From Burkholderiaceae bacterium (GTDB lineage: Bacteria > Pseudomonadota > Gammaproteobacteria > Burkholderiales > Burkholderiaceae): 9,095 nt of DNA. The number at the start of each line of letters is the position of its first letter. The first letter of the stretch is position 1. The notes under the pieces are model-generated. The model searched no databases and had not been told where the DNA came from. It saw nothing but the letters and a program-made list of their open reading frames with translations. Of this stretch, positions 1-9,095 are shown in pieces. The position numbers and the translations under genes were made by a program. The stretch is taken from assembly GCA_022701965.1 (NCBI GenBank), contig JAKONL010000341.1, forward strand, positions 1-9,095, in the 5' to 3' direction.

Positions 1-636
1 AAGAGCTTCGAGGCCGTGGTGCAGACGCACACGGTGCCGCTGGTGCTGGTCGTCGCGCCCGGCTCGCCGTTCAGGAGCATCAAGGACATCGTCGCCTGGG
101 GCAAGGCGAACCCGGGGCAGCTCAGCTTCGCGTCCAGCGGCAACGGCGGCGCGCCGCACTTCTCGGGCGAGCTGTTCAAGAGCATGGCGGGCATCGACAT
201 GCAGCACATTCCGTACAAGGGCAGCACGCTGGCCCATCCCGACCTGATGGGCGGGCGCGTGTCGCTGATGTTCGACACGCTGACGGCCGTCAGCGCGCAG
301 GTGAAGTCGGGCAAGCTGCGCGCGCTGGCCGTGACCACGCCCAAGCGGCTCGCCGCCTTGCCGGACGTGCCGACCGTCGCCGAGTCGGGCCTGCCGGGCT
401 ACGAGACCAGCACCTGGGGCGGCCTGCTCGCGCCGGCCGGCACGCCGGCGGCCACCGTCGCCCTGCTCAATGCCGAAGTGGACCGCATCCTCGCGCTGCC
501 CGACGTGCGCCAGCGTTTCGAGAATGCCGGCATGGAGCCCGCGGGCGGCACGCCGCAGCAGTTCGCCGCCTTCATCGCCAGCGAGACCACCAAGTGGGCC
601 AAGGTGGCCGCGCAGGCGGGCATCCAGCCCGAATGA
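1..636 (+). CDS. Bug/TctC-family periplasmic solute-binding protein, 3' part only
   Basis: The reading frame is open from base 1, so the gene begins upstream of the window; 211 residues remain of a family that is usually about 320-330. The missing part holds the signal peptide and the first half of lobe 1. Visible family signatures are FASSGNGG followed by HIPYKG (the ligand-pocket region), GKLRALAVT, LPDVPTVAE and LLAPAGTP. Family knowledge: Bug proteins bind carboxylates or other small organic acids in the periplasm, and some serve tripartite tricarboxylate (TTT) transporters, but most in Burkholderiales are orphans. No TctA/TctB membrane subunit is seen here. The next gene is a second Bug protein whose SD sequence overlaps this stop codon, so the two are probably co-transcribed. 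The ligand cannot be told from sequence. Confidence 0.93.
   Translation, partial: KSFEAVVQTHTVPLVLVVAPGSPFRSIKDIVAWGKANPGQLSFASSGNGGAPHFSGELFKSMAGIDMQHIPYKGSTLAHPDLMGGRVSLMFDTLTAVSAQVKSGKLRALAVTTPKRLAALPDVPTVAESGLPGYETSTWGGLLAPAGTPAATVALLNAEVDRILALPDVRQRFENAGMEPAGGTPQQFAAFIASETTKWAKVAAQAGIQPE
310..335 (+). repeat. 26-base block shared by the two tandem Bug genes (copy 1)
   Basis: The 26 bases that encode most of GKLRALAVT are identical to 1314-1339 in the next gene. The surrounding DNA is clearly diverged, so this is most likely strong protein conservation combined with the same preferred codons, or a small gene-conversion tract. Confidence 0.7.
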
Positions 637-647: not shown

Positions 648-1640
648 ATGCACGCACATCGCTTCACGCACCGCCGTACCGCACTGGCAGCCATGGCCCT
701 GGCCCTGGCTGCGCTCGCGCCGCTTCCGGCCTTCGCCGACGAGGCCTATCCGAGCCGGCCGATCACGCTGATCGTCCCGTTCTCGCCGGGCGGCGGCACC
801 GACATCGCCGCGCGCCTGCTGGCCACGCGCCTGGGCGTGCGGCTGGGCAGGCCGGTGGTGGTCGACAACCGGGCCGGCGCGGGCGGGCTGGTCGGCGCCG
901 ACCTGGTCGCCAAGGCCAGGCCCGACGGCTACACGCTCTTCTTCGCGAACGTCGGCACCCAGTCGATCAATCCCTGGCTCTACAAGATGCCCTACGACGC
1001 GGATAAGGCCTTCGCGCCGGTCTCGCTGTTCGCCGAGCTGCCGTTCGCACTCGTCGTCAATCCCAATATCCCGGCCAAGACGCCCAGGGAACTGGTGGCG
1101 CTGGCCAAGGCCGCGCCCGACAGGTACACCTTCGCGAGTTCGGGCAACGGCGGGTCGCCGCACCTGACCGCCGAAATCTTCCAGCAGGCCACCGGCATCC
1201 AGCTGCGCCACGTGCCCTACAAGGGCGGCGGTCCGGCCATGGCCGACCTGATCGCGGGCCATGTCGACATGCTGTTCGCCTCGGTGCTGGAGACCTCGGG
1301 CTACGTCAAGGGCGGCAAGCTGCGCGCGCTGGCCGTGACGAGCGCGCAGCGCTCGCCGGTCATGCCCGACGTGCCCACGCTCGCCGAGCAGGGTATCGCC
1401 AATGCCGACTCCGGATCGTGGACCGCCGTGCTCGCGCCGGCCGGCACGCCCGCCGACATCGTCGACAAGCTCGCCGCCGGCATCCAGGCGATCGCGCAGA
1501 TACCGGAGGTCAGGGAGCAGCTGACCGCCCAGGGCGCCATCCCGCGCGGGACCACGCCGGCCGAGCTGCAGAAGGTGATCGACGCCGACAGGGCGCGCTA
1601 CGGGCAGGTGATCAGGACGCGCGGCGTCCGGCTGGACTAG
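648..1640 (+). CDS. Bug/TctC-family periplasmic solute-binding protein
   Basis: This is a complete protein of 330 residues, the normal family length. A basic N-terminus (HRFTHRR), a hydrophobic stretch at about 11-28 and AFA before Asp31 form a clear Sec-type signal peptide, with likely cleavage after Ala30. Mature family motifs follow: VPFSPGGGTDIAAR at 43-56, VDNRAGAGG at 72-80, FASSGNGG at 162-169, HVPYKGGGPAMADL at 188-201, GKLRALAVT at 223-231 and LAPAGTP at 262-268. Known of the family: two-lobed binding proteins that hold a carboxylate through the PGGG loop and backbone contacts. The start at 648 is chosen because of the SD at 635-640 and because the signal peptide begins there. It sits in tandem behind a diverged paralogue and 17 bases before a 2-hydroxyacid dehydrogenase. 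That suggests uptake or sensing of a hydroxy or keto acid, which is an inference. No membrane components are nearby. Confidence 0.94.
   Translation: MHAHRFTHRRTALAAMALALAALAPLPAFADEAYPSRPITLIVPFSPGGGTDIAARLLATRLGVRLGRPVVVDNRAGAGGLVGADLVAKARPDGYTLFFANVGTQSINPWLYKMPYDADKAFAPVSLFAELPFALVVNPNIPAKTPRELVALAKAAPDRYTFASSGNGGSPHLTAEIFQQATGIQLRHVPYKGGGPAMADLIAGHVDMLFASVLETSGYVKGGKLRALAVTSAQRSPVMPDVPTLAEQGIANADSGSWTAVLAPAGTPADIVDKLAAGIQAIAQIPEVREQLTAQGAIPRGTTPAELQKVIDADRARYGQVIRTRGVRLD
1314..1339 (+). repeat. 26-base block shared by the two tandem Bug genes (copy 2)
   Basis: Second copy of the block at 310-335, in the same frame and the same position of the protein. A further 20-base block coding for LAPAGTP is identical at 427-446 and 1431-1450, and occurs inverted at 2807-2826 in the third Bug gene. 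Confidence 0.7.
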
Positions 1641-1657: not shown

Positions 1658-2581
1658 ATGAGCATCGACAAGCCGATCGTCCTCAAGGCCGCCGAGTTGC
1701 CGGACTGGGCCACCGAAGCGCTCCACGCGCGCTTCACCGTACTCGAACTTCCCAAGGACGCCGCCGATGCCGCGGCGTTCCTGCGCACGCACGGCGCGGG
1801 CGTGCGCGGCATGGCGCTGCGCAAGACGAAGGTGGACGCCGCGCTCCTCGACGCGTTGCCGGCGCTGGAGATCATCTCGAGCTACAGCGCGGGCCTGGAC
1901 AACGTCGACGTGCCGGCCGTGAAGGCGCGCGGCATCGTGCTGGAGAACACCTCCCGCGTGCTGGCCGAGGACGTGGCGAACACCGCGCTCGGCCTGGCGC
2001 TCGCGGTCACGCGCGACCTGGTGAACGCGGACGCGTTCGTGCGTTCCGGAAAATGGCCGGCGCACGGGCAGTACCCGCTCGGCCGTTCGATCTCGCGCAT
2101 GCGCATCGGCATCGTCGGCTTCGGCACCATCGGCTCCGCCATCGCGCGGCGGCTCGCGGCCTTCGGGTCGCAGGTGGCGTATTTCGGCCCGAACGCCAAG
2201 CCCGTCGACCTCCGGTACTTCGACGACGTGGTCCGGCTCGCGGCCGAGAGCGACATGCTGATCCTGACCTGTCCGCTGACGCCGGCGACGCATCACCTGG
2301 TGAACGCCCGAGTCCTGGAGGCGCTCGGACCGCAGGGCTATCTCGTGAACATCGCCCGCGGTCCGGTGGTCGACGAAAGGAGCCTGATCGCGGCACTGGC
2401 GGCCGACCGCATCGCCGGCGCGGCGCTGGACGTGTTCGAGCACGAACCCGACGTACCGCCCGAACTGGCGGGCGATGCCCGGGTGGTCCTCACGCCGCAC
2501 ATCGGCTCGGCGACCGAGGAGACACGGCGCGCCATGGGCCAGAACGTCGTCGATACGCTCGCGCGGCATTTCGGGCGGTAG
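1658..2581 (+). CDS. D-isomer-specific 2-hydroxyacid dehydrogenase (glyoxylate/hydroxypyruvate reductase-like)
   Basis: This is a cytoplasmic NAD(P)H oxidoreductase of 307 residues, typical for the family (310-330). It interconverts 2-keto acids and D-2-hydroxy acids. The catalytic domain residues (about 1-98 and 286-307) flank a Rossmann domain with the dinucleotide loop GFGTIG at 154-159. The catalytic triad is visible: Arg234 in NIARGPVVDE, Glu263 in DVFEHEP and His281 in TPHIGSAT. The SYSAGLDNVDV stretch at 75-85 is the substrate-loop signature. The start at 1658 has a modest SD (GGGGAA at 1643-1648); the same open frame extends further upstream, but that part lies inside the Bug gene in another frame. 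It ends 29 bases from the convergent Bug gene. Substrate preference (glyoxylate, hydroxypyruvate or another 2-keto acid) cannot be fixed; the small-molecule reductase subgroup is more likely than PGDH because there is no ACT domain. Confidence 0.93.
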   Translation: MSIDKPIVLKAAELPDWATEALHARFTVLELPKDAADAAAFLRTHGAGVRGMALRKTKVDAALLDALPALEIISSYSAGLDNVDVPAVKARGIVLENTSRVLAEDVANTALGLALAVTRDLVNADAFVRSGKWPAHGQYPLGRSISRMRIGIVGFGTIGSAIARRLAAFGSQVAYFGPNAKPVDLRYFDDVVRLAAESDMLILTCPLTPATHHLVNARVLEALGPQGYLVNIARGPVVDERSLIAALAADRIAGAALDVFEHEPDVPPELAGDARVVLTPHIGSATEETRRAMGQNVVDTLARHFGR

Positions 2582-2610: not shown

Positions 2611-3630
2611 CTACTCGTCCGACTTGATGCCGGCCTCGGTGATGAGTTTTTCCCAGCGCGTCACTTCGGTCCCGATGCGTTCGGCCGACTGCGCCGGCGT
2701 GGTGGGCTGGGCGGCGTAGACGCCCTGCTTGAGCAGCATGTCCTTGAACTCGGCGGTCTGGACCAGCTTCCTGAGCGCTTCGTTCAGGCGCATGACGATC
2801 GCCTCGGGCGTGCCGGCCGGCGCGAGCACGCCGAAGGTCGAGGACACGTCCAGGCTCGGCAGACCCGCCTCGGGCGCCGACGGCACGTCGGGCAGCATCG
2901 AGATGCGCTGCGGCATGGTGACCGCGAGGGCGCGCAGCTTGCCCGTCGAGATGAAGGGCAGCGCGGCGGGCACGGTCTCGACCATCATGTTGACCTGGCC
3001 GCCGACCAGATCGGTCATGGCCGGACCGCTGCCCTTGTAGGGCACGTGCTGCATCTTCACGCCGGCGTCCCGGCGGATCATCTCGCCGCCCAGGCGCTGC
3101 GGCGCGCCGGGGCCGGACGAGGCGAAGTTGAGCTTGTCCGGATGGGCCCGGCCGTAGGCGATCAGTTCCTTGAGCGTCGTCACCGGCAGCTGCGGATTGA
3201 CCACCACGACCAGCGGTACCGCCCCCACCACCATCACCGGGGCGAAGTCGCCGACCAGGCTGTAGCGCAGCCGGCCCTTCTCCAGCGTGGCGACGGCCGC
3301 ATGGCTGGTCAGCGCGCCCATCAGCAGCGTGTAGCCGTCCGGCGCCGCACGAGCGACCGCTTCGGCGCCGATGTTGCCGCCCGCGCCGCCCCGGTTGTCC
3401 ACCACCACCTGCTGGCCGATCTCGTCCCCGAGCTTCTGCGCGACGATGCGACCGATGACGTCGGTGGCGCCGCCGGGCGGGTACGGGACGACCAGCCTGA
3501 GCGGCTTGTCGGGATAGGCGGCGACCGCGCCGCCCATGCCGAACGCGAGCGCGAGCGCGCATCCGAGGCGGGTGGCGGAAAGCAGGTGTCGCCTGCGCGG
3601 AAGAGGACGGGGAGCGGGGCCGGATTTCAT
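2611..3630 (-). CDS. Bug/TctC-family periplasmic solute-binding protein, last gene of the - strand run
   Basis: This is a complete protein of 339 residues. The N-terminus has PRRRHLLSAT at 11-20, a run of arginines followed by two leucines that resembles a twin-arginine motif. A hydrophobic core at about 21-36 and AVA before the mature AYPDKP follow. Export may therefore be by Tat, although Sec cannot be excluded. Family motifs: VPYPPGGATDVIGR at 48-61, VDNRGGAGGNIGAE at 77-90, FASSGPGAPQRLGGE at 169-183, HVPYKGSGPAMTDL at 195-208, GKLRALAVT at 230-238 and LAPAGTP at 269-275. The start at 3630 has GGAGA 7 bases upstream (3638-3642) and begins the signal peptide; the in-frame extension to 3747 would add 39 residues overlapping the previous gene and is less likely. 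It lies 52 bases downstream of the DapA-like gene on the same strand, so it is probably the uptake or sensing component of that catabolic operon. Confidence 0.94.
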   Translation of the reverse strand: MKSGPAPRPLPRRRHLLSATRLGCALALAFGMGGAVAAYPDKPLRLVVPYPPGGATDVIGRIVAQKLGDEIGQQVVVDNRGGAGGNIGAEAVARAAPDGYTLLMGALTSHAAVATLEKGRLRYSLVGDFAPVMVVGAVPLVVVVNPQLPVTTLKELIAYGRAHPDKLNFASSGPGAPQRLGGEMIRRDAGVKMQHVPYKGSGPAMTDLVGGQVNMMVETVPAALPFISTGKLRALAVTMPQRISMLPDVPSAPEAGLPSLDVSSTFGVLAPAGTPEAIVMRLNEALRKLVQTAEFKDMLLKQGVYAAQPTTPAQSAERIGTEVTRWEKLITEAGIKSDE

Positions 3631-3682
3631 GGGTGGGTCTCCAGATTCGAAGCAGAGGTCGGAATGCCCCGCTTCTTGCTTC

Positions 3683-4639
3683 TTAGGTGGCCGGTGCGCG
3701 TGCGTCGTGGCGCTGCAGCCTCGTGAGCAGATGATCGACTTCGGCACGCGCGAGCGCGGTGAACGGCGCTGCCGGCTTGCGCTGGGCGGCCGATGTCAGC
3801 AGCCCGCGGCGCATGAGGATGTACTTGCGTACCGAGAGCCCCACGCCCGGCTGCTGCTCGTAGCGCAGCAACGGCAGGTGGGCGTCGAACAGGTCGTGGG
3901 CTTCCTCGCGCTGCCCGGCGCGAGACAGGCGCACGACGTCGCACAGCATGTCGGGGAATGCGTAGCCGGTGTTGGCGCCGTCGGCGCCCCGCTCCATCTC
4001 GTAGTCGAGGAAGAGGCCGTTGTTGCCGCACAGGATCGGGATGCGGCGCATGCCCGACTTCTCGAACTGGCGCAGCGCCGTGATCTTCTCGAGCCCGGGC
4101 CAGTCCTCGTGCTTGAGCATCGCGCACGAGGGCAGCTCCTCGACGATGCGGCGGATCACGCCCGGGGCCATCTGGACGCTGAAGGTCAGCGGATAGTCCT
4201 GCAGCACGAACGGCACGTCCGCACCGATGGCCTCCACCGCCTGCCGGTAGTAGCCCACGATCTGGTCGTCGGTGCGCAGGGTGTGGGGCGGCGCGATCAT
4301 CACGCCGGCCGCGCCGATGGCCATGACGTCGTGGGTCAGGGCCCGCATGGCGGCGAAACCCGGCGCCGAGACGCCGACGACGACCGGCAGGCCGGAGGCC
4401 CGGCGGATCATCCGTCTCGCGACGTCCAGGCTCTCCTGCTGCTCCAGCTTGGGGGCCTCGCCGAGCTGGCCCAGGACGGTGATGCCGGTGGCGCCGCAGC
4501 CCAGGTAGAAGTCGGTCAGGCGGTCGATGGACGCCGTGTCGATGCTGCCGTCCTCCAGGAAAGGCGTCGGCGCGATGGGATAGACGCCGTGGGCGTCCGG
4601 CGGCAGCAGTGCGGTCTTTCCTTCGGTGCTCAGGTCCAT
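3683..4639 (-). CDS. DapA-like (DHDPS/NAL family) aldolase or dehydratase of unknown substrate
   Basis: This is a class I (Schiff-base) TIM-barrel lyase of 318 residues. The Schiff-base lysine is Lys176 in MLKHED, and the partner tyrosine is Tyr149 in LQDYPLTF. Their 27-residue spacing is close to the 28 of E. coli DapA (Tyr133, Lys161). The DapA phosphate/carboxylate-loop motif GTTGE is replaced by GQLGE at 57-61, so both threonines that shape the DapA site are gone. True dihydrodipicolinate synthase activity is therefore unlikely. Family members act on 2-keto-3-deoxy sugar acids and similar substrates, which fits the dehydratase upstream. The start at ATG 4639 is chosen for its SD (GGAGA at 4644-4648); a GTG at 4663 that overlaps the LacI stop codon (GTGA) would add eight residues but has no good SD. 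Retro-aldol cleavage or dehydration of a 2-keto-3-deoxy acid is inferred, not shown. Confidence 0.9.
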   Translation of the reverse strand: MDLSTEGKTALLPPDAHGVYPIAPTPFLEDGSIDTASIDRLTDFYLGCGATGITVLGQLGEAPKLEQQESLDVARRMIRRASGLPVVVGVSAPGFAAMRALTHDVMAIGAAGVMIAPPHTLRTDDQIVGYYRQAVEAIGADVPFVLQDYPLTFSVQMAPGVIRRIVEELPSCAMLKHEDWPGLEKITALRQFEKSGMRRIPILCGNNGLFLDYEMERGADGANTGYAFPDMLCDVVRLSRAGQREEAHDLFDAHLPLLRYEQQPGVGLSVRKYILMRRGLLTSAAQRKPAAPFTALARAEVDHLLTRLQRHDARAPAT

Positions 4640-4643
4640 GAAA

Positions 4644-4648
4644 TCTCC
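4644..4648 (-). promoter_or_regulatory. Ribosome binding site for the DapA-like gene
   Basis: GGAGA lies 4 bases before the ATG at 4639. It supports that start over the GTG at 4663, whose upstream region has no clear SD. Confidence 0.6.
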
Positions 4649-4659
4649 GGTTCGGTTCG

Positions 4660-5736
4660 TCACGAGTTCGTCCGCTGGCGGGGCGCGGCGGTGCTGCCGC
4701 GCACGACCAGCGTGAAAGGGATGTGGGTCGAGTTGGCGACCGCCTGGCCGCCGATGCGCGCGAGCAGGTAGTCCGCCGCTCTCGCGCCGACCGCTCCGGC
4801 CTCCAGCCGGACGGTGGTGAGCGGCGGCGTCAGGTGTTCGGCGAAATCGGCATCGTTGATGCCCGTGATCGACACGTCGCCCGGCACGCTCACCCCCATC
4901 GACTGCGCCTGCACCAGCGCGCCGAAGGCGAGCGAATCGGTGCCGCAGATCACGGCGGTGGGGCGCTTCGCCGTCTCCATCAGCGCCTGGAAGGCGAGCT
5001 GGCCGTCGACGATCTTGTGCGATTCGCTGATCAGCTGTTCGCGCGGGCCGGGCGCGCCACGGGCCGCCAGCGCCGCGCGGATGCCGGCCACCCGCTTGGC
5101 GGCACGGTCGCTCTGGGGCGACTGCTGGGCGATGACGCCGAAATCGCGGTGGCCGAGGTCGAGCAGGTAGTTGGCCAGCGCCTGGCCGATCGCGTAGTTG
5201 TCGAAGCCGACGCTCGGGTGGGTGTCGTCCTGCACCCAGGTGTTGACGAAGGGCACGCCCTTGGCCGCGAGCAGCTGGTAGACCTCGTCCGAATGCCGCG
5301 CGCCGACGAGCATCATTCCGGCCACGCCGTGCGAGAGCAGCGCGCTGACCTGGCGGACCTCCTCCTGCGGGTCGTAGTTCGAGCTGGCGAGCAGCAGCGT
5401 GTAGCCGCCCGTGTTGAGGCGTCGCTGCAATGCGCCGACGCCGACCGAGAAGTTCGCCTCTTCCAGCGTCGGCACCACCGCGCCCATGGTCGAGAAACGT
5501 TGCGTCGCCAGCGCGCGCGCCGCCGCATGCGGCGTGAAGCGCATCTGCGCACTGGCCCGCTCGACCCGCACGCGCAGCTCCTCGGCGACCGTCGACTTGC
5601 CGTTGAGCACGCGCGAGACCGTGGCCACCGACACGCCCGCGGCCTTGGCCACGTCGCGGACCGTGACCGAGCGCGTGCCGGGTCGCGGCGAGCGCGGCCT
5701 GGCTTCCCCGGCCTCACCGGCCTGACCGGCCGTCAA
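4660..5736 (-). CDS. LacI-family transcriptional regulator with TTG start
   Basis: This 358-residue regulator carries a LacI HTH at about 25-46 (TVRDVAKAAGVSVATVSRVL), the most diagnostic block of the family. The hinge helix with ARAL at 73-76 holds the leucine that usually wedges the operator minor groove. A periplasmic-binding-protein-like effector domain runs from about 82 to the end, with GFDN at 177-180, CGTDSLAFGAL at 264-274, GDVSITGIND at 286-295 and LTTVR at 306-310. It probably represses this operon and is relieved by a pathway intermediate, which is inference from family and position. The first possible start in frame is TTG at 5736, which overlaps the stop of the RraA-like gene as TTGA; only a poor SD (GGCGAGA at 5744-5750) precedes it, so translation is probably coupled. 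A 24-residue leader with an AGQ-AGE-AGE repeat precedes the HTH. Unusually, the regulator is embedded mid-operon rather than divergent. Confidence 0.93.
   Translation of the reverse strand: MTAGQAGEAGEARPRSPRPGTRSVTVRDVAKAAGVSVATVSRVLNGKSTVAEELRVRVERASAQMRFTPHAAARALATQRFSTMGAVVPTLEEANFSVGVGALQRRLNTGGYTLLLASSNYDPQEEVRQVSALLSHGVAGMMLVGARHSDEVYQLLAAKGVPFVNTWVQDDTHPSVGFDNYAIGQALANYLLDLGHRDFGVIAQQSPQSDRAAKRVAGIRAALAARGAPGPREQLISESHKIVDGQLAFQALMETAKRPTAVICGTDSLAFGALVQAQSMGVSVPGDVSITGINDADFAEHLTPPLTTVRLEAGAVGARAADYLLARIGGQAVANSTHIPFTLVVRGSTAAPRQRTNS
5704..5730 (-). repeat. Three imperfect 9-base tandem repeats at the 5' end of the LacI gene
   Basis: Read on the - strand, three 9-base units GCCGGTCAG, GCCGGTGAG and GCCGGGGAA follow the TTG and ACG codons and encode AGQ, AGE, AGE. 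Units of nine keep the frame, so copy-number change would alter only the leader length ahead of the HTH. Confidence 0.6.
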
Positions 5737-6449
5737 CCGCCGGTCTCGCCGCGGTAGCGTGCGAGGTTGGCCTCGTTCGCCGGGTACAGGCCCGGCAGCT
5801 CGGCGCCCTTCTTCACCTGCTGCATGATCCAGGTCTCGAGCCGTTCCTGCTCCGGTCCGGCCGCCATCACCTCGTCCAGGTAGGCCTCGGGAATCACGAC
5901 GGCGCCGTCGTCGTCCGCCACGATCACGTCGCCGGGATAGATGGCGACGCCGCCGCAGCCGATCGGCTCCTGCCAGTTGGCGAAGATCATCCCCGACGCC
6001 GAAGCCGGTGCGGCCGTGCCCTGGCTCCAGGTGGGCAGGCCGGTCGACAGCACGCCGTTGATGTCGCGGATCACGCCGTCGGTCACCAGCCCCGCCACGC
6101 CCCGGTAGGCCATGCGGGCGCAGAGGATGTCGCCGAAGATGCCCGAATCGGTGTGGAATCCGGCGTCGACCACCACGATGGAGCCTTCGGGCATGTTCTC
6201 GACGGCGGCCCGCGTGGAGCGTGGCGACGACCAGGCAGCGGGCGTCGCGAGGTCCTCCCGCGCCGGAATGAAGCGCAGCGTGAACGCGCGCCCGACGATG
6301 CGCGGACCGCCGCCGTGCAGCGGCCGGCTGTTGCGGATCCAGACGTTGCGCATGCCCTTCTTGAGCAGGATGGTCGTGATGGTGGCGGTGCTCACGCCTT
6401 TCAGCGTCTCGACGACGGCAGGGGCCAGCGGGGACATGGATTCGCTCAT
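5733..6449 (-). CDS. RraA-like / HMG-aldolase-fold family protein
   Basis: This protein of 238 residues belongs to the RraA-like family, often annotated as ribonuclease activity regulator RraA. Enzymatic relatives are class II (metal-dependent) pyruvate aldolases such as 4-hydroxy-4-methyl-2-oxoglutarate aldolase. Visible motifs are GSIVVVDAG at 89-97, a glycine-rich loop leading to LVTDGVIRD at 121-129 with the Arg128-Asp129 pair, and YPGDVIVADDDGAVVIP at 171-187. In HMG aldolases an acidic residue follows RD after two positions; here Gly132 is there, so classical HMG aldolase activity is doubtful. The start at 6449 has GGAGA at 6456-6460, and the frame open to 8015 is antisense-type carry-over through the dehydratase gene. 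It lies 26 bases after the dehydratase gene and overlaps LacI by four bases. In this operon an enzymatic role, such as aldolase, decarboxylase or isomerase on a sugar-acid intermediate, is more plausible than RNase E control; this is inferred. Confidence 0.88.
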   Translation of the reverse strand: MSESMSPLAPAVVETLKGVSTATITTILLKKGMRNVWIRNSRPLHGGGPRIVGRAFTLRFIPAREDLATPAAWSSPRSTRAAVENMPEGSIVVVDAGFHTDSGIFGDILCARMAYRGVAGLVTDGVIRDINGVLSTGLPTWSQGTAAPASASGMIFANWQEPIGCGGVAIYPGDVIVADDDGAVVIPEAYLDEVMAAGPEQERLETWIMQQVKKGAELPGLYPANEANLARYRGETGG

Positions 6450-6455
6450 GGTGTT

Positions 6456-6460
6456 TCTCC
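6456..6460 (-). promoter_or_regulatory. Ribosome binding site for the RraA-like gene
   Basis: GGAGA lies 6 bases before the ATG at 6449, inside the 26-base gap after the dehydratase stop. It supports this start over the in-frame ATG at 6437. Confidence 0.6.
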
Positions 6461-6475
6461 AGGAAGGTGCTGCGT

Positions 6476-8185
6476 TCAGAGATCCGAGGACCGGAGGAAG
6501 TCGAAGTCGCAGCCGTCCTCGGCCTGCAGCGTGGCGTCCTGATAGAGCTTGGCGTAGCCGCGCGTCGGCGCTGGAGGCGCCGGTGGCATGGCGTCGCGCC
6601 GGGCAGCGAGCTCCGCCTCGTCCACCAGCAGGTCGATCTTCCGCTCGCTCACCGACATGCGGATGCGGTCGCCGCTGCGCACCAGGGCGAGCGGGCCGCC
6701 GACCGCCGCTTCGGGCGACACGTGCAGGACGATGGTGCCGTAGGCCGTGCCGCTCATGCGGGCGTCGGAGATGCGCACCATGTCCTTCACGCCGGCGCGC
6801 AGCAGTTTCTGCGGGATCGGCAGGTAGCCCGCTTCCGGCATGGCCGCGGCGCTGGTCGGCCCGGCGTTCTGCAGCACCATGAAGTCGTCGGCGTTCACGT
6901 CGAGGTCGGGGTCGTCGATGCGCTCGGCGAGGTCCTCGAGCGAGCTGAAGACGACGGCGCGGCCGGTGCGCTCGAACAGGTTCGGGTCGGCCGCCGAGCG
7001 CTTGATGATCGCGCCGTTGGGCGCGAGCGAGCCGAACAGCGCCGCGAGACCGCCCTGCGCGCGGATCGGGTCGGACATGGGATGCACGACCGCGCGGTCG
7101 ACCCAGGTCGACTCGCCCTTCAGGCGCTCGCCCATGGTCTCGCCGGTGACGGTCATGCAGTCCAGGTGCAGCAGCGGTTCGAGTTCGCGCAGCACCGCGC
7201 CCAGGCCGCCGGCGGCGAACAGGTCCGACATGTAGTGCTGGCCGGTGGGCTTGAGGTCCACCAGCACGGGCGTGGTGTCCGACAGCTCGTTGAGCCGGTG
7301 CAGCGGGATGCGGATGCCGCGCCGGCCGGCGATGGCCGTCAGGTGGATCAGCGCGTTGGTCGAGCCGCCGATGGCCAGCAGCACGCGCAGGGCGTTCTCC
7401 ACCGACTTCTCCGTGATGATCTCGCTCGGCCGGATCGGCGCCAGCGCGAGTTCGGCGGCGCGCTTGCCGCTGGCCTCCGCCGCGCGGATGCGGTCGGAAT
7501 GCACCGCCGGAATGGCGGCCGTGCCCGGCAGCGACATGCCCAGCGCCTCGGCGATAGAAGCCATGGTGCTGGCGGTGCCCATCACGCCGCAGGTGCCGGC
7601 GGTCACGGCGAGCTTGCCCTCGACCTCCTCGATGCCTTGCGCCGAGACTTCGCCGGCCCTGAACTTGCCCCAGAAGCGGCGGCAGTCGGTGCAGGCGCCC
7701 AGGCGCTCGCCCTGGTAGGGCATGGGCAGCATCGGCCCGACCACCAGCTGGATGGCGGGAATGTCGGCCGAGGCCGCGCCCATGAGCTGCGCCGGCACGC
7801 TCTTGTCGCAGCCGCCCACCAGCACCACGGCGTCCATGGGTTGCGAGCGCACCATCTCCTCGATGTCCATCGACATGAGGTTGCGGAACTTCATCGACGT
7901 CGGGCTCTGGAACGATTCGCCCAGCGAGATGCTCGGGAAATCCAGCGGCAGGCCACCGGCGGCGAGCACGCCGCGCTTGATCGCCTCCACCAGTTCCGGC
8001 GTCGTGCGGTGGCACGGGTTGAAGCCGCTGGCCGACTGCGCGATGCCCACCACCGGCCGCTTGAGCATCTCGCTCGACAGGCCGGACTGCTTGGCGAAGG
8101 TGCGGCGCAGGTACAGCGAGAAATCCGCGTCGCCGTAGTTCGTGAGACCGCGGGCGAGGCCGACGGGTCGGGTGGGAGCGTTCAA
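6476..8185 (-). CDS. IlvD/EDD-family sugar-acid (aldonate) dehydratase, TTG start
   Basis: This is a 569-residue [2Fe-2S] dehydratase that converts a 2,3-dihydroxy acid into a 2-keto-3-deoxy acid. The cluster cysteines are Cys58 (NPCHR), Cys126 (GGCDKS) and Cys199 (GTCGVMG). Lys128 is the likely carbamylated Mg ligand and Ser478 (ARMSGTAYG) the likely catalytic alkoxide. From memory, these sit one or two positions from their counterparts in the crystallised Rhizobium L-arabonate dehydratase. GTCGVMGTASTM and SDARMSGTAYG are of the sugar-acid dehydratase kind rather than the GACGGMYTANTM and DGRFSGG of true IlvD, so branched-chain amino acid synthesis is unlikely. The start is TTG at 8185 with AAAGGAA (8190-8196) in good position; the next in-frame ATG would remove the conserved N-terminus. 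The TTG overlaps the amidohydrolase stop as TTGA. Substrate is undetermined: pentonates such as L-arabonate or D-xylonate are candidates. Confidence 0.94.
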   Translation of the reverse strand: MNAPTRPVGLARGLTNYGDADFSLYLRRTFAKQSGLSSEMLKRPVVGIAQSASGFNPCHRTTPELVEAIKRGVLAAGGLPLDFPSISLGESFQSPTSMKFRNLMSMDIEEMVRSQPMDAVVLVGGCDKSVPAQLMGAASADIPAIQLVVGPMLPMPYQGERLGACTDCRRFWGKFRAGEVSAQGIEEVEGKLAVTAGTCGVMGTASTMASIAEALGMSLPGTAAIPAVHSDRIRAAEASGKRAAELALAPIRPSEIITEKSVENALRVLLAIGGSTNALIHLTAIAGRRGIRIPLHRLNELSDTTPVLVDLKPTGQHYMSDLFAAGGLGAVLRELEPLLHLDCMTVTGETMGERLKGESTWVDRAVVHPMSDPIRAQGGLAALFGSLAPNGAIIKRSAADPNLFERTGRAVVFSSLEDLAERIDDPDLDVNADDFMVLQNAGPTSAAAMPEAGYLPIPQKLLRAGVKDMVRISDARMSGTAYGTIVLHVSPEAAVGGPLALVRSGDRIRMSVSERKIDLLVDEAELAARRDAMPPAPPAPTRGYAKLYQDATLQAEDGCDFDFLRSSDL

Positions 8186-9033
8186 GATGTTCCTTTGGTG
8201 TTCAGGGTATCGCCCGGGGACAGGCCGTAGAGATGCGCGGGATTCTCCACGCAGATGCGCTGGCGGAGGGCCGGTTCGTCGAGCCAGTCCAGCACCGCGA
8301 GGGCCCGCTCGTCGTCCGGTAGCACGTCGGCCTCGGAGACGTGGGGCCAGTCGCTCGCCCACAGGCAGCGCTGCGGAAATTCGTCGATCAGGATGCGCGC
8401 CAGCGCCGCGACCTCGGGATAGTCGGGCCGGCCGATGGCCGACATGCGGTGCGTGTAGGGCCCGGACAGCTTGACCCACGCACGGCCGGTCTCGAGCAGC
8501 GCCAGCAGGGCCTTGAAAGGTGCGTCCTGCGGCCTCGTGCCGCCCACGAAGGCGCCGACGTGGTCGATCACGACATCGACCGGGAGACGCTTCAGGTCGT
8601 CGAGCCGCGCCGGCAGCTGGTGGCCGTCGAACTGCAGGTTGAGGTGCCAGCCCAGCGGCGCGACGGCGTCGGCCATCGGCGCCAGCTCGGTCCAGCCGAG
8701 GCCGCCGTGGCGCAGCAGCATGAAGCGCACGCCGCGCGCGCCGGCGGCATGCAGGCGCCGCAGCTCCACCTCCGGCGTGTCGGGCGCGACGACGACGATC
8801 GCGCAGGCGCCGGCACCCATGGCCGCCACCGCATCGAGCGTGCAGCGGTTGTCGAAGCCATAGCCCGAAGGCTGCACGACCACCGCGCACCGGATGCCCC
8901 TCCGGGCGGCCAGCGCCAGGTAGTCCTGCGCCGTCGCCTCGCGGTACATCGCGTCCGGCAGGGGCGCGAAGCGTCGGTCGAACACGTGCATGTGGCAGTC
9001 GCACACGCCCTCGGGCATCGGTTGCGGGGTCAT
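8182..9033 (-). CDS. Amidohydrolase_2 family hydrolase, LigI-type lactonase
   Basis: This TIM-barrel hydrolase has 283 residues, close to LigI (about 290). The N-terminal metal or substrate-site motif is CDCHMHVFD at 11-19 (His14, His16). Further family residues are His158 in VIDHVG, Lys188 in WVKLSGPY and the catalytic base Asp228 in WASDWPH, followed by ENPAHLYGL near the C-terminus. Family members hydrolyse lactones: 2-pyrone-4,6-dicarboxylate (LigI), L-rhamnono-, L-fucono- and related sugar lactones, and 4-sulfomuconolactone. Next to a sugar-acid dehydratase, an aldonolactonase that feeds aldonate to the dehydratase is the favoured reading (inference). The start at ATG 9033 has GGAGG at 9042-9046, 8 bases away. 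The ATG overlaps the stop codon of the upstream gene as ATGA, and the stop codon overlaps the TTG of the dehydratase. It is the first complete gene of the visible - strand run. Confidence 0.92.
   Translation of the reverse strand: MTPQPMPEGVCDCHMHVFDRRFAPLPDAMYREATAQDYLALAARRGIRCAVVVQPSGYGFDNRCTLDAVAAMGAGACAIVVVAPDTPEVELRRLHAAGARGVRFMLLRHGGLGWTELAPMADAVAPLGWHLNLQFDGHQLPARLDDLKRLPVDVVIDHVGAFVGGTRPQDAPFKALLALLETGRAWVKLSGPYTHRMSAIGRPDYPEVAALARILIDEFPQRCLWASDWPHVSEADVLPDDERALAVLDWLDEPALRQRICVENPAHLYGLSPGDTLNTKGTS
8190..8196 (-). promoter_or_regulatory. Ribosome binding site that fixes the TTG start of the dehydratase
   Basis: AAAGGAA lies 4 bases before TTG 8185, within the end of the amidohydrolase gene. 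No ATG or GTG in frame is close, so this site decides the TTG start. Confidence 0.7.
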
Positions 9034-9095
9034 GACCGCAGCCTCCGGGCGTGCTCGGCGTTGAGCGCGTTGCCGGGCATGCGTCCGGCGACGAT
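9030..9095 (-). CDS. 3' end of an unidentified upstream gene
   Basis: On the - strand a frame is open from the window edge and ends in TGA at 9030-9032, overlapping the amidohydrolase ATG as ATGA. The 21 visible codons read IVAGRMPGNALNAEHARRLR plus a final Ser. The ATGA junction and the GGAGG SD placed inside this frame argue for a real gene in the same operon. The fragment is too short for a family call; it could be a transporter, dehydrogenase or other pathway enzyme. Confidence 0.55.
   Translation of the reverse strand: MVAGRMPGNALNAEHARRLRS

Follow-up and report, generated by a model that had tools for sequence, protein, structure and literature searches.

We examined a stretch of 9,095 nucleotides from a Burkholderiaceae bacterium (contig JAKONL010000341.1 of assembly GCA_022701965.1; hereafter the window), which has 71% G+C and holds two gene groups on opposite, converging strands. 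The minus strand carries, from 9033 to 2611, six genes whose families were assigned by profile search: a lactonase (LAC), an IlvD/EDD dehydratase (DHT), an RraA-family protein (RraA), a LacI-family regulator (LacI), a DapA-like protein and a Bug receptor. These are the genes, order, strand and families given in a preliminary description of this DNA, and the run very probably breaks down a sugar-acid lactone. The features are listed below, those of the minus-strand unit first.

9030..9095, minus strand: HADH2, D-2-hydroxyacid dehydrogenase, last 21 residues and stop codon (read from the sequence; the C-terminus matches the gene at L123:8184-9164 of the related genome G117, Pfam 2-Hacid_dh)
8182..9033, minus strand: LAC, amidohydrolase-superfamily lactonase, 283 aa (Pfam Amidohydro_2, 1.2e-38; PDB relatives 4mup and LigI 4d8l)
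6476..8185, minus strand: DHT, IlvD/EDD sugar-acid dehydratase, 569 aa, TTG start overlapping the LAC stop (Pfam ILVD_EDD_N, 2.6e-103)
5733..6449, minus strand: RraA-family protein of the PRK08245 type, 238 aa (Pfam RraA-like, 2.2e-31; NF006093, 321 bits, cut-off 208)
4660..5736, minus strand: LacI-family regulator, possible TTG start overlapping the RraA stop (Pfam LacI and Peripla_BP_3)
3683..4639, minus strand: DapA-like DHDPS-family protein, 318 aa (Pfam DHDPS, 5.7e-22; PDB 3dz1, 1e-131, and 7c0c, 3e-28)
2611..3630, minus strand: Bug/TctC periplasmic receptor, last gene of the unit (Pfam TctC, 1.1e-69)
1658..2581, plus strand: second D-2-hydroxyacid dehydrogenase (Pfam 2-Hacid_dh_C, 1.1e-52)
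648..1640, plus strand: Bug/TctC receptor (Pfam TctC, 2.9e-74)
1..636, plus strand: Bug/TctC receptor, 5' end cut by the window (Pfam TctC, 1.5e-51)

From LAC through DHT, RraA, LacI and the DapA-like gene to Bug, the intergenic gaps are -4, +26, -4, +20 and +52 nt, a spacing as in one transcription unit. The TGA of HADH2 overlaps the ATG of LAC by 4 nt (ATGA), and the C-terminus of HADH2 reads IVAGRMPGNALNAEHARRLRS, against IIAGRMPGNALNAEHALRLRA in the G117 gene at the corresponding place. The window edge at 9095 cuts HADH2, and the minus-strand unit therefore extends past the window; in G117 an importer also lies further upstream. Contrary to what had been proposed, the operon is not complete here. 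The plus-strand unit (1-2581; a Bug fragment, a Bug gene and a D-2-hydroxyacid dehydrogenase) converges on it. The plus-strand dehydrogenase belongs to a cluster of seven members (cluster 10), its own sequence included; the six relatives, from Cupriavidus, Pseudomonas and Paracandidimonas, all lie inside dehydratase/SDR/DapA modules, in a clustering that covered DapA neighbourhoods only. A plasmid search with the window returned no record covered to at least 80%, the best of the matches listed reaching 19%.

Active-site residues of the encoded enzymes

The lactonase keeps the HxH motif (residues 14/16), His158 and Asp228, and in this it resembles LigI (4d8l), an amidohydrolase-family enzyme with HxH and Asp, the Asp of which aligns with Asp228. 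The other solved relative, 4mup, is of the same family but has Gln at the first HxH place and Asn at the Asp place; we take it to be a D-galactarolactone isomerase without a general base, and LAC does not show this Asn type. The Asp228 position was occupied by Asp in the 21 closest LAC relatives (P0001-P0021) and, over 121 rows, by Asn in 94, Asp in 26 and Ile in one. In a tree of 74 of the 121 rows (the first 75 less short ones), the Asp and Asn types separated in one split, with support of only 93/49, and the Ile sequence (P0043) fell in no group.

The dehydratase carries the signature of IlvD/EDD sugar-acid dehydratases by alignment, namely the three Fe-S cysteines (Cys58, Cys126 and Cys199) together with the serine of the SGTA motif (MSGTAYG at 477). 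It scored 819 bits against NF004784 (cut-off 539). The nearest solved relative was 8ej0 (4e-162), which we take to be PuDHT of Paralcaligenes ureilyticus, followed by L-arabinonate dehydratase (presumably the Rhizobium leguminosarum enzyme, 9evv/5j83). Both are IlvD/EDD enzymes with the three aligned Cys and the SGTA motif, as in DHT, though the score of DHT lay below the NCBIfam PRK13016 equivalog cut-off for L-arabinonate dehydratase (671.8 vs 882 bits). PuDHT is reported as most active on D-gluconate in the cited part of PMC9314677. At residues 163-172 (window 7670-7699, minus strand) DHT has the segment GACTDCRRFW with two extra Cys, where PuDHT and L-arabinonate dehydratase have GSGTDVWKMS and GSGTHLWKFS, respectively; GACTDCRRxW was present in 20 of 20 clustered DHT sequences, that of the window included.

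In the RraA-family protein, D107-X20-R128-D129 is kept in 121 of 121 rows, window included, and these letters are reportedly those of the aldolase motif set out by Mazurkewich in 2014. Its best PDB match was 5x15, which we take to be RraAS2 of S. coelicolor, a protein that FlDet of Flavobacterium UMI-01 also resembles (26%). The PDB search also showed it to be a relative of HMG/CHA aldolase (6e-17); it scored below the equivalog cut-offs of that enzyme (90 vs 179 bits for PRK09262 and 82 vs 304.5 bits for the NCBIfam LigK model). According to an excerpt of PMC5065237, the majority of RraA homologues retain one or the other of two motifs that serve metal binding and catalysis, and these proteins are likely class II pyruvate aldolases.

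The DapA-like protein has a Schiff-base Lys176 that aligns with Lys171 of KdaD, the 2-keto-3-deoxy-L-arabinonate (L-KDA) dehydratase of A. brasilense (3fkk/7c0c), while Gln147 and Glu178 are the equivalents of KdaD Gln143 and Glu173; all three are conserved in 77 of 77 sequences, the window included. The cited part of a review (PMC9795676) states that L-KDA dehydratase works without aldol cleavage, Gln143 replacing the Tyr, and that Glu173 is conserved in no other DHDPS/NAL enzyme; a 2026 paper, as excerpted, stresses a catalytic Glu in KdaD (PMC13398020). The column of the catalytic Tyr of aldolases holds Gln in all 77 sequences, so that the pattern of 2-keto-3-deoxygluconate (KDG) aldolases is absent. 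KdaD Glu199 and Glu200, the latter the base for the C5 proton, are replaced by Asn206 and Asn207 in the window, and across the clade by Asn (one Ser) at the first place and by Gly (42 sequences) or Asn (35 sequences) at the second. The match to KdaD 7c0c (3e-28) is far behind that to 3dz1 (1e-131), which is named only dihydrodipicolinate synthase. Judged by these residues, the clade is KdaD-like without being KdaD, and a role of the DapA-like protein as an aldolase is unlikely.

Gene neighbourhoods and operator-like sites in related genomes

Among 299 genomes from the family to which G001 (source of the Variovorax locus L001) belongs, we found the closest relative of the operon in G117: the DHT match there had 91% identity, and all other matches had at most 62%. 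Contig C87 of G117 carries a peptide-type ABC importer, a D-2-hydroxyacid dehydrogenase (HADH), LAC (71%) and the beginning of DHT (95%); contig C115 carries the remainder of DHT (91%), RraA (85%) and LacI (81%). The dehydrogenase-lactonase-dehydratase-RraA-LacI core is thus common to the window and G117 at 71-95% identity, preceded by the ABC importer in G117. A search of G117 for DapA found no homologue at 1e-60. Three overlapping draws centred on G117 (399 genomes of the family at E 1e-85, 398 of the phylum and 399 of the order at E 1e-75) yielded a LAC of the window type in none but G117 itself. The protein search lists more LAC relatives, mostly metagenomic; five pairs of LAC and RraA agree in source and in the length of the longest contig (32642, 98810, 157563, 19285 and 2909), so that the two genes may be linked, and the LAC of the 19285 pair (P0025) is of the Asn type.

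Scanning genome contigs with the DapA-like protein gave 184 loci, of which the best 80 were kept, some on short contigs. By tblastn at 55% identity or more, 19 of the 80 loci have a dehydratase no further than about 10 kb from DapA, and 19 have an RraA at such a distance; both partners are present in 8 loci, at least one in 30, and none in 50. Counting called genes gave a similar picture (dehydratase 18, RraA 17, both 8, either 27, of 76 loci), four loci without a called DapA being left out (L031, L040, L054 and L055; L031 was read by hand). For a single copy at a random position in a genome of 5 Mb we estimate an expectation of about 0.3, and the recurrence exceeds chance. Together with the core in G117, these loci of several genera bear out the co-occurrence in related genomes on which the preliminary description had staked its reading.

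The modules differed in composition. That of Pseudomonas sp. Q11 comprises a divergent DHT, TTT-type transporter genes and a regulator (both by eye), HADH, a galactarate-dehydratase-like gene, an SDR gene, RraA (47%) and DapA; that of Cupriavidus has Bug, DHT, HADH, SDR, DapA and RraA; that of Methylobacterium MFS, DHT, RraA, SDR and DapA; and that of Paracandidimonas soli a LacI gene divergent from SDR, DapA, an FMN oxidase, HADH, Bug and DHT. In a Ramlibacter metagenome-assembled genome (L019), DHT overlaps a LAC of 35% identity, with DapA divergent. The galactarate-dehydratase-like gene occurred in 5 of 76 DapA neighbourhoods. DapA was also found in other settings, including many Methylobacterium loci with neither dehydratase nor RraA. 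A Variovorax run (L001:10004-14967, same order in L002 and L003) joins, with short overlaps, DapA, CitE, a CoA transferase (called by eye), an FAD enzyme like L-2-hydroxyglutarate oxidase, and LAC; this is another pathway in which DapA and LAC occur together. In Cupriavidus, a gene of the SMP-30/gluconolactonase type (Pfam SGL; L005:8787-9710) stands in an RraA-HADH-Bug-DapA neighbourhood, and a gene of the same cluster at L009:5717-7494 is directly followed by LAC.

On plasmids, a dehydrogenase stands just before LAC, together with a LacI-type or substrate-binding-domain gene, in two of three LAC neighbourhoods, the third having neither. In these two (L143:3941-6819 and L139:5906-8816), a TRAP transporter, a regulator-like gene (annotated LacI in L139, a substrate-binding-domain protein in L143), a hydroxyacid dehydrogenase and LAC stand in a row, with no adjoining dehydratase; the row from regulator to LAC is perhaps a conserved front end. 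The six RraA neighbourhoods on plasmids contain an SDR gene in five cases, a DHDPS-family gene in three and amino-acid-type genes in four. Part of the Cupriavidus plasmid record H1 was without annotation. In L135, L136, L138 and L140, RraA and SDR (in L138 also DapA) lie beside aminotransferase, racemase, glutamate-cyclase-domain or amidase genes.

Relatives of the window LacI occur in G117 (81%) and Paracandidimonas (62%), in both cases in units with AACCGGTTTCT-type sites. Two exact GTAACCGGTTTCT sites lie 78 bp apart before the G117 importer (0.01 expected), and the LacI-SDR gap of Paracandidimonas holds GAAACCGGTTTCT and GAAACCGCTTTCT, 64 bp apart, before the SDR-DapA-oxidase-dehydrogenase-Bug-dehydratase unit. 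The AACCGGTTTCT motif was read by eye from L048 and L123 and then counted, so that the counts are post hoc: an exact match occurred in 3 of 134 loci, namely the G117 unit, the Paracandidimonas unit and L033, where the site falls, as judged by eye, in the 3' end of a gene for an EamA-like transporter and shows no sign of a link. The looser GNAACCGNTTTCT pattern matched six times in G117, including twice in the operon promoter, and five times in genome G005, where three matches (two sites) fall in the LacI-SDR gap, against one match of a control pattern in each; across both genomes, close pairs occurred only at the G117 operon promoter and in the Paracandidimonas gap. In the window, GNAACCGNTTTCT was not found with up to two mismatches, as expected if the promoter lies outside it; nor was it found in L120, or GAAACCGNTTTC in L013, with one mismatch. 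We also tried the GalR-type operator TGNNANCGNTNNCA with one mismatch and rejected it, its matches in L123, L048 and the window being below the mean of the shuffles.

The AACCGGTTTCT-type sites share a AACCGGTTTC core with the PtxS operator of 2-ketogluconate operons, given as TGAAACCGGTTTCA in the cited part of PMC11678583. The PtxS/kgu system has a LacI-family regulator, as does the window; the profile search found neither a kinase nor an epimerase among the window proteins. The window LacI may bind putative sites of this kind upstream of the window. Through two relatives of this one regulator, a dehydratase of the same kind and D-2-hydroxyacid dehydrogenases are connected with LAC and RraA in one genome and with DapA in the other.

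Proposed pathway and alternatives

We propose a LacI-repressed operon by which a sugar-acid lactone, or the corresponding 2-keto acid, is taken up and degraded. In this scheme, LAC would hydrolyse the lactone, DHT would dehydrate the sugar acid to a 2-keto-3-deoxy acid, and a metal-dependent RraA-family enzyme would cleave the latter, probably to pyruvate and a 2-oxo acid or an aldehyde. The D-2-hydroxyacid dehydrogenases would reduce a cleavage product of the glyoxylate or hydroxypyruvate type, or supply the pathway with substrate through reduction of a 2-ketoaldonate. The DapA-like protein would be a Schiff-base enzyme of the L-KDA-dehydratase type, probably an accessory dehydratase and not an aldolase. 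We infer the reactions, the substrate and the binding of LacI to its sites from residues and gene neighbours, and give this explanation as a whole a probability of about 0.5.

The families and their order, with the lactonase before the dehydratase, uphold the earlier view of a catabolic operon for sugar acids or lactones. That view had treated RraA and DapA as equal candidates for the lyase, which they do not appear to be: the DapA-like protein lacks the aldolase Tyr, has the Gln and Glu of the L-KDA-dehydratase type and has no homologue found in G117, and the RraA motif is kept in every row, which suggests RraA as the better candidate for the cleavage. The term aldonate in the earlier description is also not established. 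An aldonate or 2-ketoaldonate would agree with the PuDHT-like dehydratase, the PtxS-like operator and the D-2-hydroxyacid dehydrogenase beside LAC; an aldarate is equally possible, because the RraA-family enzymes we know of act on diacids, and it would agree with the galactarolactone and dicarboxylate enzymes among the LAC relatives and with the galactarate-dehydratase-like gene of the sister modules. The literature search gave no lead for isosaccharinate among the matches listed.

Lactonase, acid-sugar dehydratase and DHDPS-family enzyme are parts of non-phosphorylative pentose routes (PMC6336799 and PMC9795676, both as excerpted). Like the window, the Weimberg, Dahms and Route III operons of Azospirillum, Caulobacter and Herbaspirillum combine these three, with an IlvD/EDD dehydratase in some and the DHDPS-family enzyme acting on the 2-keto-3-deoxy acid. 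The window differs in that an RraA-family protein replaces the classical aldolase or FAH-type enzyme, that D-2-hydroxyacid dehydrogenases are added, and that neither an alpha-ketoglutaric semialdehyde dehydrogenase nor a sugar dehydrogenase is seen in it. The combination of RraA, DapA and Bug, which had been set apart from the textbook pentonate operons, is not unique to the window. The literature search over open-access papers found no description of the module among the matches listed. More tentatively, the operon may represent a further non-phosphorylative route: the 2-keto-3-deoxy acid would be handled by the RraA metal enzyme, and a distinct clade with the DHDPS fold, having the Gln and Glu but not Glu200, would catalyse a reaction not yet described in that family.

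Several observations weigh against the pathway proposed at the outset of this section. The exact gene order of the window was not found in any locus examined. Paracandidimonas has DapA and the closest dehydratase among the named loci (75-76%), yet no RraA above 41% in its genome. Three Variovorax genomes hold the closest DapA relatives (86-88%); their best dehydratase matches (60-61%) are on a different contig, and in the two of these genomes tested the best RraA reaches 41%. No IlvD/EDD gene is annotated in the six RraA neighbourhoods on plasmids, and no RraA, DapA or LAC in three dehydratase neighbourhoods on plasmids, in both cases under incomplete annotation. The absence of DapA from G117 is weak evidence, as this seems to be a metagenome-assembled genome. 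Finally, FlDet shows a second activity in the RraA family, acting as a dehydratase/decarboxylase according to the cited part of PMC8563752.

The same excerpt of PMC8563752 describes FlDet as an RraA-family protein of 237 aa that converts KDGR to a product taken as alpha-ketoglutaric semialdehyde and is inactive on DEHU, KDG, KDPG and 4-hydroxy-2-oxoglutarate. If the window RraA worked in this way, an aldarate lactone would be the substrate, and 2-keto-3-deoxy-hexarate would be dehydrated and decarboxylated with no aldol cleavage of a C-C bond. We consider this unlikely, though it is the strongest of the alternatives. FlDet acts on a 2-keto-3-deoxy acid and is similar in length to the window RraA (238 aa), which has the shared relative 5x15 as its best PDB match; many of the LAC relatives bear the name D-galactarolactone isomerase at JGI; the Cupriavidus modules hold galactarate-dehydratase-like genes, with a score of 370 bits where the cut-off is 731; and on a Salipiger plasmid a dehydratase relative adjoins a succinate-semialdehyde-dehydrogenase-like gene, as a route via alpha-ketoglutaric semialdehyde would. 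However, a scan by motif and length found an aldehyde-dehydrogenase-like gene in just 2 of 76 DapA neighbourhoods and none in the window, and the gene setting of FlDet differs. We also know of no IlvD/EDD enzyme that acts on aldarates.

That the DapA-like protein is itself the aldolase for the 2-keto-3-deoxy acid appears improbable. It belongs to the DHDPS family with its Schiff-base Lys176 and is the only such enzyme seen beside the dehydratase in Paracandidimonas; against this stand the Gln at the Tyr position throughout the clade, the match of Glu178 to Glu173 of a dehydratase that performs no aldol cleavage (PMC9795676, in the excerpt cited above) and the result at 1e-60 in G117.

Less probable still is a role of RraA and DapA on a hydroxy-2-oxo diacid, for instance 4-hydroxy-2-oxoglutarate, that would derive here from a pentarate and in other operons from an amino acid. 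This would fit the glyoxylate-reductase-like dehydrogenases and the plasmids of Bradyrhizobium, Variovorax, Methylobacterium and Rhizobium on which RraA, with SDR and/or DapA, lies beside glutamate-cyclase-domain, alanine-racemase, aminotransferase and amidase genes. The idea comes from the annotation of neighbouring genes; amino-acid substrates would leave LAC and the dehydratase unexplained, and FlDet, of the same family, is inactive on 4-hydroxy-2-oxoglutarate in the excerpt of PMC8563752.

We rejected as very improbable a fragment of the protocatechuate 4,5-cleavage route, in which LAC, a relative of LigI (2e-31), would open 2-pyrone-4,6-dicarboxylate and RraA would be the CHA aldolase to which it is related: the profile search found no ring-cleavage or hydratase family among the window proteins, the LigK model scored far under its cut-off, and an IlvD/EDD enzyme has, to our knowledge, no place in that route.

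The window thus represents a real, recurring kind of sugar-acid operon, with the lyase question narrowed towards RraA. The DapA-like clade (77 sequences, with 3dz1 as a solved relative) carries the Glu173 equivalent, and its reaction is directly testable. RraA-like proteins are often annotated as regulators of RNase E, and the recurring link of RraA to sugar-acid genes suggests that many of them are metabolic enzymes. The finding bears on annotation and on the knowledge of pathways, not on a basic principle.

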